A program made the translations under genes and the position numbers. The notes below the pieces were generated by a model. The model had not been told where the DNA came from, searched no databases, and saw only the letters and a program-made list of their open reading frames with translations. A stretch of DNA of 64,000 nt from Magnetospirillum sp. (GTDB lineage Bacteria > Pseudomonadota > Alphaproteobacteria > CACIAM-22H2): contig JAPZUA010000005.1 of assembly GCA_027532905.1 (NCBI GenBank), positions 186,001-250,000 on the forward strand, given 5' to 3'. Positions 20,818-48,194 of this stretch are shown in pieces; the stretch's first letter is position 1; each line of letters opens with the position of its first letter.

Positions 20818-20922
20818 AGTTTCAATTGGGCCGATCGGACCTAAATAGAGATTGTTCGTCAACGAACGATCTGGGGACCCGATTGGCGGGTCCGGTTCGC
20901 GACGAAGATGGAGATTGAGATC

Positions 20923-21306
20923 ATGTCCGCCCCCTCGCTTTCGGCCCCGAATGCCTCTTCCAACGTCCAGGACCGTTTCCTGGCCGGTCAGGTGGATATG
21001 GCACTGGATGCGCGCCGTTTGCGTAGCCAAGCCTTTGCCGCTTTCACGGCCGACGCCCTTGTGACCGTCGGCGCCAGCTTCAAGGCTGCGGTTGCGCGCC
21101 TGAAAAACTGGAACGAACGCCGCGCCACCTTTGCCGAGCTCGAATCGCTCGACGACCGCATCCTGGCCGATATCGGCTTGAGCCGCAGCGAAATCAGCCA
21201 GGTGGCGAGCGGCCACTATGTGCGCGATTCGCAAGACTATCGCCAGAATGCGATCGAAACCGTGAAGGAAGCGGCCAACCAGGACCGCAACCGCAACGCC
21301 GCGTAA
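20923..21306 (+). CDS. DUF1127 (YjiS-like) small protein with N-terminal extension
   Basis: A 127-residue protein. The DUF1127 motif lies at about residues 60-95: a basic stretch with LKNWNERRATFAELESLDDR, then ILADIGLSRSEISQVASG. DUF1127 proteins are common in alphaproteobacteria, often as several paralogues, and some bind RNA or affect phosphate and carbon metabolism. The first 50 residues are an unconserved-looking extension. ATG 20923 was chosen over 20908 because GGAG sits 9 bases before it. A strong terminator follows, so it is probably monocistronic. Confidence 0.8.
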   Translation: MSAPSLSAPNASSNVQDRFLAGQVDMALDARRLRSQAFAAFTADALVTVGASFKAAVARLKNWNERRATFAELESLDDRILADIGLSRSEISQVASGHYVRDSQDYRQNAIETVKEAANQDRNRNAA

Positions 21307-21330
21307 CGGCCCAAACGGTCGAAATCGGCG

Positions 21331-21366
21331 AACGGCAGCCTTGTCCGCAAGGCTGCCGTTTTTGTT
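21331..21366 (+). terminator. Intrinsic terminator after the DUF1127 gene
   Basis: AACGGCAGCCTTG at 21331-21343 pairs perfectly over 13 bp with CAAGGCTGCCGTT at 21348-21360 around a TCCG loop. It is followed by a T-rich tract (five T, G, three T). It is one of the two strongest terminators in the window, with the one after rpmE. Confidence 0.93.
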
Positions 21367-21370
21367 TGTC

Positions 21371-21458
21371 CCGCGCGACGGATGCGCGACATAGACGCGA
21401 CATGCATGCGACGCCTGCGCGACATGGACGCGACATAGGCGCGACATAGGCGCGACAT
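21371..21458. repeat. Eight tandem 11-bp repeats
   Basis: Read on the minus strand this is eight back-to-back 11-mers with consensus ATGTCGCGCCT. All eight keep the GTCGC core in register, and six begin ATGTCGCG. In plus coordinates the units are 21371-81, 82-92, 93-403, 404-14, 415-25, 426-36, 437-47 and 448-58; the last two are identical. The unit length is about one helical turn, so the copies would face the same side of the DNA. It lies between a terminator and the 3' end of an HTH gene, and no credible gene covers it. Confidence 0.9.
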
Positions 21459-21480
21459 TTTTTGTACCAAATATCTGGAA

Positions 21481-22017
21481 TCATTCATCTATGTCCCCAA
21501 GTTCCAGGGGCGTTTCCTCGCCCTTGGGCGGCGGGGCGGAATTGCCGTCGGCATCGAGATGGTACGAACGGTCGGGATCCGGGATCGCCGCCTCGGCCGC
21601 AGCCACCTCGGCCATGTCGGCCGGCGTCAGTTTCTGGGTCGGATAGCCCCAGCTCGTAACGCTCAGCCGGTCGGCGACCCACAAGGCCGCGCGCAGATTG
21701 CCGTCTTTGACCTCGTTCAAGATGAGTTCGACCGCCGCACTGCGCGCCAATTCGAGCCGGGTCGCGGTCTCGACCGCGCGGCGCACGCGCACCTCGTGCA
21801 GCATGCCGCGCGCGACGTTCGACCGACGCAAGATGCGCCAGATCTGCGAGCGCGAGATGCCCGTAAAGCGTGCCACTTCATTGACTTTGTGGCCGCGACT
21901 CAACATCGCTACGACCAACGCCCAATCGTAGCTGCGCCCCGGCCCAGGCACCGCCCCTTCGCGCGCCGGTTTGGCCGCATAGGCGGCCGACGGATGGTTG
22001 GGGTGAAAGTCGACCAT
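21481..22017 (-). CDS. Orphan HTH protein, terminase-small-subunit-like or resolvase-type HTH
   Basis: A 178-residue protein. A helix-turn-helix is visible at about residues 32-68 (YDWALVVAMLSRGHKVNEVA, then TGISRSQIWRILRRS). A basic/helical middle (RVRRAVETATRLELARSAAV) and an acidic, Pro-rich tail (PPPKGEETPLELGDIDE) follow. The layout recalls phage terminase small subunits or DNA-binding resolvase-like HTH proteins, but the family is not certain. AGGAG and AAAGGAA precede the ATG. A perfect palindrome lies about 10 bases upstream and an 11-bp repeat array begins 22 bases beyond its stop. No phage genes are next to it. Confidence 0.72.
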   Translation of the reverse strand: MVDFHPNHPSAAYAAKPAREGAVPGPGRSYDWALVVAMLSRGHKVNEVARFTGISRSQIWRILRRSNVARGMLHEVRVRRAVETATRLELARSAAVELILNEVKDGNLRAALWVADRLSVTSWGYPTQKLTPADMAEVAAAEAAIPDPDRSYHLDADGNSAPPPKGEETPLELGDIDE

Positions 22018-22026
22018 TTCCTTTCT

Positions 22027-22047
22027 CCTATTTAAAGCCTAAATAGG
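22027..22047. promoter_or_regulatory. Palindromic operator candidate before the HTH gene
   Basis: CCTATTTA at 22027-22034 and TAAATAGG at 22040-22047 form a perfect 8-bp inverted repeat with a 5-base spacer, ending ten bases before the HTH gene start. It overlaps the ribosome-binding region of that gene and lies in an AT-rich leader. The position suggests autoregulation by the HTH protein, though an RNA hairpin is also possible. Confidence 0.55.
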
Positions 22048-23439: not shown

Positions 23440-24459
23440 TCAGTAGATCAGGTCGTTGTCGTCGTCGGTCTTGTTGGACAGAACGATTTCCTCGCGCGCG
23501 GCGAGATCCTTTGCCGTCGCGATGATGGCGGCCTGCGCTTCGTAGACGTCCTTGCTGCGCAAGGGGCCGAGCGCTTCCATCTCCTCGCGCAGCATTTTGC
23601 CGGCACGTTCGGACATGTTCGAGAACACGAGATCGCGCAGTACTTCCGGCGCCCCTTTGAGGGCGGGCGCGAGCCTGTTTTTGTCGACCGCGCGCAGCAG
23701 CGTCTGCACGCCGCCCGGATCGAGCTTGGCGAGATCCTCAAACTTGAACATCAGCGACTTGATGCGTTCGGATGAGTCGCGGTTGCGCTCTTCGAGTGCG
23801 GACATGAAACGCGCTTCGGTGTCGCGCCCGAGGCCGTTGAAAATCTCGGCCATCAGCTCGTGCGTGTCTTTGCGGCTCGTCTTTGCAAGGTTCGACATGA
23901 ACTCGTTGCGCAGCACGCGCTCGACGTCGTCGAGAACTTCTTTGGGCACGCTTTCCATGCGCAGCATGCGCATGATGACTTCCATCGCGAAACTGTCGGG
24001 CAGCGAGCTCAGCACGCGCGCCGAATGATCGGGCCGGATCTTGTTGAGGATGACGGCCACTGTCTGCGGATATTCGTTCTTGAGGAAGTTCGCGAGCAGC
24101 ACTTCGTTGACGTTGCCGAGCTTGTCCCACATCGTGCGCCCGGCGGGCCCGCGCACCTCGTCGAGGATTTCGGCAGCGCGGTTCTTGTCGAGCACCTTGG
24201 ACAGGAGCCGCTCGGTCGAGTCGAAACTGCCCATGACCGAACCGCTCGCCGACATCTGGTCGGCGAATTCGATGATCAGGCGCTCGATGATCGCCGCATT
24301 GATGCTGCCGAGCGTCGACATGGTCTGCGAGATCTCTTTGATCTCGTCGTCGGTCATCAGCGCGAACAGTTTGCCGGCCGACTCTTCGCCAAGCGACAAG
24401 AGGATGATCGCGGCCTTCTCGGCGCCGGTCAGACTGCGATAGTCGTCTTTGACGCGCAT
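23440..24459 (-). CDS. fliG: FliG, flagellar motor switch protein
   Basis: A 339-residue switch-complex protein that couples the C-ring to the stator and sets rotation sense. The N-terminal domain starts LTGAEKAAIILLSLGEESAG. The middle domain has the EHPQ-type motif as NEYPQTVAVIL. The C-terminal torque domain includes MFKFEDLAKLDPGGVQTLLR and LVFSNMSERAGKMLREEMEA. Length matches the family (E. coli 331). No other flagellar gene is in the window. The nearest upstream gene, 15 bases away, encodes a PAS protein and is probably cotranscribed. Confidence 0.95.
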   Translation of the reverse strand: MRVKDDYRSLTGAEKAAIILLSLGEESAGKLFALMTDDEIKEISQTMSTLGSINAAIIERLIIEFADQMSASGSVMGSFDSTERLLSKVLDKNRAAEILDEVRGPAGRTMWDKLGNVNEVLLANFLKNEYPQTVAVILNKIRPDHSARVLSSLPDSFAMEVIMRMLRMESVPKEVLDDVERVLRNEFMSNLAKTSRKDTHELMAEIFNGLGRDTEARFMSALEERNRDSSERIKSLMFKFEDLAKLDPGGVQTLLRAVDKNRLAPALKGAPEVLRDLVFSNMSERAGKMLREEMEALGPLRSKDVYEAQAAIIATAKDLAAREEIVLSNKTDDDNDLIY

Positions 24460-47030: not shown

Positions 47031-48194
47031 ATGAGCGCACATCAGATCCCCCGCACCCCTCTCTTGGCCACAAGCGTCCTGGCCTTGGGCCTTGCCGTTG
47101 CCGCCACCCCGCTGGCCGCCCAACAGCAATTGCGCCAGCCGCGCCCGAGCGTCGAGGTCGATTGGTCCGTCCTCGACGAGATGCCGGTCCCCGGTGCTGA
47201 AACGCCGCAATTGCGCCTGCCGCGCAGTGCCACGGGCCCAGGTGCTGCCGCCCCTGCTGCAAATTTCGGCGGTTTGACGCCGCCGCGTACGGCACCCACA
47301 CCGCTTGCCGCCGCGCCGACAAGCCCGGTGACGCGCGCCCCCTTGGTGCCGCCGTCGGGCAGCGGTTTTGTGCCGCCCGCAGCCCCGCCGACCTTCGGCG
47401 ATGCCGCCCCCTCGACCGCCGTACCCGTGCCCGCAACGCCGGCCAATCCGCTCGGCACGCCGTCTGCCCCGCCGCCCGCGATGGCCGCCGCACCGCAAGC
47501 CATCACGCCGCCGCCGGCTGCCAATGCCCCCGCAAGCAGCGCCGGGCGCCCGACCCCGCCGACGCTCAATTCGTCCACACCCGCACCGACCGCGATGGCA
47601 AGTGCGCCGCCGCCGCCGCCCTCGGCCAACGTGATGCGCGCGCCGCAGACGATCGTACCGCCGCCTGCTGCGTCGGCGCCCAGCGCCCCGGCTCAAAACG
47701 CATCGGCACCGGCCGCCATCGCACCGCCGCCGGCGCAAATCGCTGCCCCAGCACCAGCACCGACTCCAGCACCCGCACCTGCCCCCGTGGCTGCACCGGC
47801 ACCGGCACCGGCACCCGTTGCCGCACCGGCACCCGCCGCTGCGCCGGCACAAGTCGCAGCCGCACCGGCAGCTCGCGCGGCAACCGATCCGGTCGCACGG
47901 CTGGGCTTTGCCGCGGGCGGTGCTGAGCTCGGCGCCGACGCGCGGCCTTCGCTCGCGCGCGTGATCGAAGAATTGCAGCGCGATACGGCTGCGCGCTTGC
48001 AACTGCAGGCCTTTGCCTCGGGCGGCGACGACCAGGGCGGCCAAGCGCGGCGCCTGTCGCTGTCGCGTGCGCTCGCCGTGCGCGGCTATCTGATCGAGCA
48101 AGGGATCGCGTCCACGCGCATCGACGTGCGGGCACTGGGCCGTGCGAGCGACGGCCCGCCCGACCGCGTCGATGTGCTGCTGATCCGCCGCTAG
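47031..48194 (+). CDS. Secreted Pro/Ala-rich protein with C-terminal OmpA-like domain
   Basis: A 387-residue envelope protein. A signal peptide (LLATSVLALGLAVAATPLAA) is followed by about 250 residues rich in Pro and Ala (tracts such as APAPAPTPAPAPAPVAAP), likely an extended spacer. The C-terminal 100 residues form a divergent OmpA/MotB-type peptidoglycan-binding domain (LGFAAGGAELGADARPSLAR, RRLSLSRALAVRGYLIEQGI, RIDVRALG). It could span the periplasm and hold peptidoglycan. A channel gene starts 29 bases downstream. Confidence 0.82.
   Translation: MSAHQIPRTPLLATSVLALGLAVAATPLAAQQQLRQPRPSVEVDWSVLDEMPVPGAETPQLRLPRSATGPGAAAPAANFGGLTPPRTAPTPLAAAPTSPVTRAPLVPPSGSGFVPPAAPPTFGDAAPSTAVPVPATPANPLGTPSAPPPAMAAAPQAITPPPAANAPASSAGRPTPPTLNSSTPAPTAMASAPPPPPSANVMRAPQTIVPPPAASAPSAPAQNASAPAAIAPPPAQIAAPAPAPTPAPAPAPVAAPAPAPAPVAAPAPAAAPAQVAAAPAARAATDPVARLGFAAGGAELGADARPSLARVIEELQRDTAARLQLQAFASGGDDQGGQARRLSLSRALAVRGYLIEQGIASTRIDVRALGRASDGPPDRVDVLLIRR

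Follow-up and report, generated by a model that had tools for sequence, protein, structure and literature searches.

Antitermination through boxA is a feature of rRNA operons, of CRISPR leaders and of a few genes. A boxA upstream of CRISPR arrays is reported in PMC7862264, citing Stringer et al., and a survey counted zero to seven putative boxA copies outside rRNA per genome (PMC5725501). Oligomeric or array-coating proteins have also been described: the TerS rings on pac sites provide a model of an oligomer reading repetitive DNA (PMC4737164), RemA of Bacillus is a proposed oligomer that would wrap repetitive DNA of low conservation (PMC8481266), and Cbp1 of Sulfolobales is an HTH protein which covers a repeat array and influences how it is transcribed (PMC10883916). 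No description of an array and boxA family such as the one presented here was found in the open-access papers searched.

Analysis of the window (the whole stretch of DNA under study, 64 kb) revealed eight exact head-to-tail 11-mers on the minus strand at 21374-21461, in register with the conserved core; positions 21371-21458 delimit the identical array in another phase. All eight units carry GTCGC on the minus strand while the variable part differs between units, and the consensus of the family to which they belong is GTYGCRYNNRT. Tandem Repeats Finder reported a period of 11/33 at the array. A search for five GTCGC spaced 11 bp apart matched four times in the window, always inside the array, and gave 0.00 matches in 100 dinucleotide shuffles. 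The array starts approximately 20 bp past the stop codon of a gene coding for an HTH protein, here HTH-A (21481-22017, minus strand), and approximately 12 bp beyond the adjoining intrinsic terminator (21330-21361, plus strand, 14-bp stem) of the convergent DUF1127 gene (20908-21306, plus strand; PF06568, 1.2e-13). The sequence-only reading, which had described eight back-to-back 11-mers with a GTCGC core between a terminator and an HTH gene, was thus correct as to both the repeats and their neighbours. The segment from the HTH-A stop to the first unit (21462-21480, minus strand) ends in an A-tract and has a weak likeness to the AATCAAYGG.TTA...AAAAA segment preceding other arrays; a mini-ORF in the AATCAAYGG motif was dropped, as it is not kept across copies. 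A coding role of the array was likewise dropped: the minus-strand consensus is stop-free in every frame, and open frames through the array mean little because the 11-mer runs through all phases. A Rho rut site was discarded on reading, the plus-strand consensus unit being without YC. Elsewhere in the window, positions 47684-47850 hold dense GC-rich tandem repeats with periods of 6-30 bp, probably a low-complexity coding stretch.

The genome to which the window belongs (G000; 4.26 Mb, 13 contigs) contains 13 arrays of the GTYGC-type unit scattered over its length, with 6-8 units each when partly decayed ones are counted, all spaced by exactly 11 bp, a result that refutes a simple local slippage expansion. 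In the 40 arrays read in four genomes, 5-8 units of GTYGCRYNNRT were again spaced by exactly 11 bp, and position 7 was C or T, about half each, in 231/231 units with a perfect core. The arrays are confined to four of the 11 congeners; the array pattern gave 44 matches in G000, 35 in G002, 42 in G003 and 66 in G004, and none in the seven others. For most G000 loci a like element is present at the syntenic position in G002, and for several also in G003 or G004. The flanks of these loci are approximately 75-92% identical between species, and at orthologous loci the boxA motif described below and the core pentamers are kept, but the variable positions of the units differ. The arrays of G004 (L208-L227) look as though they had been homogenised, being strongly alike across loci: units end in CAGAT or TCTAT, and the centre reads TTSGAATCGC. 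A simple gene caller of our own placed a convergent gene 3' of 22 of 26 arrays, often within 60 bp.

When the flanking sequences were aligned in the minus-strand (GTYGC) orientation, a shared motif, GCTGTTTGAMA..GTGAA, emerged approximately 100-180 nt upstream of most arrays. The motif agrees in sequence with the boxA in this organism's rRNA operon: one of the 26 copies found in G000 by pattern, GCTGTTTGACATGGTGAA, sits between tRNA-Ala and 23S (L132), 25 further matches lie elsewhere in that genome, and the reversed pattern had none. A copy was also read ahead of 16S-like sequence in a genome of another genus (G021). Because these copies precede 23S and 16S-like sequence, respectively, the upstream motif is judged from sequence to be an rRNA-type boxA, with putative NusB/NusE binding and antitermination. 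For 33 of the 40 arrays a boxA-like motif on the array's own strand was present at a distance of 88-183 nt upstream; no array had it on the opposite strand. The seven arrays lacking it comprise four that follow the HTH-A gene, together with L078, L080 and L198. Unlike most arrays, the window copy has no boxA upstream; it is a boxA-less member placed after a protein gene. Instead of boxA, the minus strand ahead of L078 was read as carrying a ribosome-binding site plus an ORF of 14 codons; at L080 and L198 a short ORF possibly enters the array.

About a third to half of the other 25 boxA copies in G000 precede 11-bp arrays. Most of the remaining copies introduce a second type of unit, type B (about 13 units in G000), with two or three pentamers (GTYGC, GTAAC or GTTAC) that are often 10 nt apart and often closed by an AAATAGG...CCTATTT inverted repeat. 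More than one spacing occurs in type-B units, so the family as a whole does not require helical phase. The 3' neighbour is convergent for 23 of 37 type-B units (two uncalled), often within 60 bp. L127 of G000 is type B while L224 of G004, at a syntenic locus, is an 11-bp array, so the two types may interconvert. The boxA pattern was found 26, 30, 28 and 30 times in G000, G002, G003 and G004, respectively, 5-7 times in G006-G008 and 0-1 times elsewhere; distant Alphaproteobacteria with HTH homologues had almost no boxA units by this pattern, and their boxA may differ. The region upstream of boxA is AT-rich and promoter-like by inspection. A consensus promoter scan of two regions found nothing, so the predicted promoters are those recognised by inspection only. 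LexA-box promoters were considered on account of a few GTTCN7GTTC-like matches seen by eye, and were dropped as inconsistent across copies.

HTH-A is a protein of 178 aa matching PF02796 (HTH_7, 8.4e-8) and PF13384 (3.8e-7); its Pfam matches are of the HTH_7/HTH_23/HTH_29 kind and not ParB. An inverted repeat, CCTATTTAAAGCCTAAATAGG, lies at its ribosome-binding site (22027-22047), is partly kept in related genomes and is a possible operator or 5'UTR hairpin. The congeners with HTH-A are precisely the four that have 11-bp arrays; the proteins of G002, G003 and G004 are 94%, 92% and 68% identical to that of the window, and in all four genomes an array directly follows the stop codon of the HTH-A gene. 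The sequence-only reading had stated that a variable period at other sites, or absence of the repeat beside orthologues of the HTH gene, would speak against its proposal; the opposite was found in both respects. Its description of the HTH gene as an orphan holds for the neighbourhood only, since a paralogue of about 250 aa, HTH-B, is present in the same genome and in each of the other genomes with HTH-A. In G000 the HTH-B gene (C1:704677-705366; L255/L260) is directly upstream of an mtnP-like gene, a place kept in several congeners, and HTH-B is a candidate partner of the type-B boxA units. G006, G007 and G008, which lack 11-bp arrays and match the boxA pattern 5-7 times, carry one diverged HTH copy each; in G006 and G008 this copy is beside the same mtnP-like gene. 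No HTH match was found in the other 54 genomes searched. Distant HTH-A homologues were found in 8 further genomes of Alphaproteobacteria among 385 searched, and L261, the one inspected in sequence, has no such array after the gene. At 23440-24459 the window carries a fliG-like match; the congeners have several such matches per genome, also on other contigs, and many are truncated where a contig stops, suggesting that fliG forms a multi-copy family which breaks the assemblies.

The ligA phylogenetic tree, which included six carriers (G007 gave no ligA match and was left out), showed that the non-carriers formed one clade while the carriers formed two clades around an unresolved fork. The co-occurrence of arrays and HTH-A is only suggestive because it represents one or two gains on the tree; since the co-distribution tracks the species tree, the same pattern would be expected of any other gene specific to the clade. 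The shared distribution points to an undescribed, clade-specific system of a protein and its predicted binding sites.

The AlphaFold2 model of HTH-A, built from a 10-sequence alignment and of modest confidence overall (mean pLDDT 63.9), predicts a resolvase/homeodomain-like HTH at residues ~31-66, a long helix at 67-104 and a short helix at 108-117, with pLDDT of about 80 in these parts. Foldseek gave no match to the model at E <= 0.001. The best structural neighbour was the phage protein 2ao9 (Z 6.5, 84 aligned, rmsd 5.6), followed by resolvase HTH-DNA complexes and then by small terminases at Z ~4. A match at Z ~6 may reflect merely the common HTH; the modelled structure is compatible with an oligomeric DNA-binding protein.

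From these data we propose, tentatively and at a little less than an even chance, that the window array is a member of a dispersed family of phased arrays which are candidate sites for HTH-A and mostly end boxA units. Most arrays would make up the 3' portion of short transcription units. Each of these would open with an AT-rich, promoter-like stretch followed by an rRNA-type boxA, continue for approximately 100-180 nt of poorly conserved, apparently non-coding and moderately structured sequence, and close with 6-8 GTYGCRYNNRT units, usually just ahead of the end of a convergent gene. HTH-A, whose HTH and long helices are reminiscent of phage small terminases, would oligomerise so that several HTHs touch successive major grooves on one face of the DNA, perhaps wrapping about 80 bp. 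Since the 3' neighbour is convergent for most arrays, bound HTH-A may act as a roadblock, stopping or slowing a boxA-modified, Rho-resistant RNA polymerase before it enters the convergent gene; alternatively, it may control the transcript of the boxA unit in some other way. The window array comes directly after the gene for HTH-A, which may therefore regulate its own transcript. The suggestion of the sequence-only reading that a protein, with the adjacent HTH protein as candidate, binds along one face of the helix receives indirect support from the constant phase in 40 arrays, the linkage of gene and array in four of four genomes and the matching distribution. Constant 11-bp phase and an HTH favour reading at the level of DNA, and the strict strand polarity of the arrays relative to boxA fits a role of either DNA or RNA. 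It is conceivable, with somewhat less than even confidence, that the whole constitutes a new two-part system of about 25-30 boxA-led units per genome, each ending in a predicted protein-binding cluster, in which HTH-A would serve the 11-bp arrays and HTH-B the shorter clusters.

We asked whether the array may instead act as RNA, the units being a multi-copy, boxA-started family of non-coding RNAs that display GUYGC/GUAAC motifs to a protein (possibly HTH-A or HTH-B) or to a partner RNA, with a sponge or regulatory function. This we regard as rather unlikely. The units are led by an rrn-type boxA, the array motif is always on the transcript strand (33:0), and in non-array units only the sense strand is enriched in GTYGC, about fivefold relative to control (201 against 57 on the reverse; controls 40 and 48). 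The leader from boxA to array is more foldable than the upstream control (mean z -1.3 against -0.2), but its z-score is equal on the antisense strand. The ends of type-B units resemble stem-loops by eye (AAATAGG..GTTACC / GGTAACCTATTT). RNA hairpins between array units also appeared convincing by eye, but permuting the units within arrays left the RNA folding energy unchanged (mean z 0.10 and 0.04 on the two strands; Stouffer 0.65), which argues for an array without a selected RNA fold. Against an RNA role, moreover, a linear RNA motif would not need exact 11-bp phase, the Rfam search returned tRNA and rRNA only and had no match for the array units, and HTH proteins usually bind DNA.

An interspersed repeat of the MITE or REP kind, non-functional or selfish, which spread in the ancestor of the clade and is now decaying, appears improbable. 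It would account for the 13 arrays and 26 boxA copies of G000 being intergenic, often past gene ends, and restricted to the clade. Against it, the copies have only short motifs in common and no long backbone, phase, unit number and the strict pyrimidine at position 7 are conserved, and boxA and array core persist at loci that are syntenic between species at the flank identities given above. Recent transposition would leave differing locations in close relatives, but most loci of G000 and G002 are syntenic.

Viral contigs matching the 11-bp pattern numbered 53, a modest excess over the 35 and 11 for control patterns; many of the arrays in these contigs (L277-L329) lie inside long open frames that are initiator-like (peptide NTDATLTQ...) and are possibly origin iterons. 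Because the controls gave 11 and 35 matches and many arrays lie in initiator-like frames, the phage arrays are treated as unrelated. The iterons, centromere-like parS array or phage packaging site offered by the sequence-only reading, which could draw on such GTYGC arrays in phage genes that look like replication initiators and on a weak likeness of HTH-A to small terminases (phrog_4102, E 0.016), are highly improbable in view of 13 dispersed chromosomal arrays with boxA leaders, of a window copy without an adjoining rep or other initiator gene, parAB, large terminase or phage gene (tested neighbours: M24 peptidase, DUF1127 and a pentapeptide-repeat protein), and of HTH-A being neither ParB in Pfam nor matched in 50,697 phage records.

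Compared with known systems, the proposed family of boxA-led arrays is nearest to rRNA boxA/Nus antitermination, its boxA being identical to that of the organism's own rrn spacer, and to the CRISPR leaders reported in PMC7862264, where a boxA also precedes a non-coding repeat array. It differs from the boxA systems of rRNA, CRISPR and suhB in having about 25 non-rRNA units per genome, against 0-7 (PMC5725501), and in the short units with contiguous 11-mer repeats without spacers. A CRISPR array was rejected for the window since the repeats are contiguous 11-bp units with about four variable bases and are not separated by spacers. HTH-A, as modelled, resembles phage TerS (PMC4737164) in an HTH followed by a helical region and, as proposed, in the cooperative reading of several weak sites. 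It differs in its many chromosomal sites without phage context; the match is weak, and a ring of HTH-A would be hypothetical. RemA (PMC8481266) is alike as a proposed oligomer on repetitive DNA, but it is an activator of biofilm genes with a LytTR-related domain and without an HTH. Cbp1 likewise pairs an HTH protein with a repeat array and is a weak profile match of HTH-A (E 0.011), at 15.6 bits against an NCBIfam cut-off of 140, and a CRISPR array is absent here. An rRNA boxA before about 25 short non-coding units, together with apparently paralogous DNA-binding proteins, would provide a natural example of Nus factors at work outside rRNA. The clade offers a ready test of how a boxA-modified polymerase gets stopped, and the arrays a clean natural target for studying how HTH oligomers read helically phased sites. 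If true, the two-part system would be a new way to organise or police transcription of a bacterial chromosome, in which a dedicated protein coats DNA in a sequence-phased manner.
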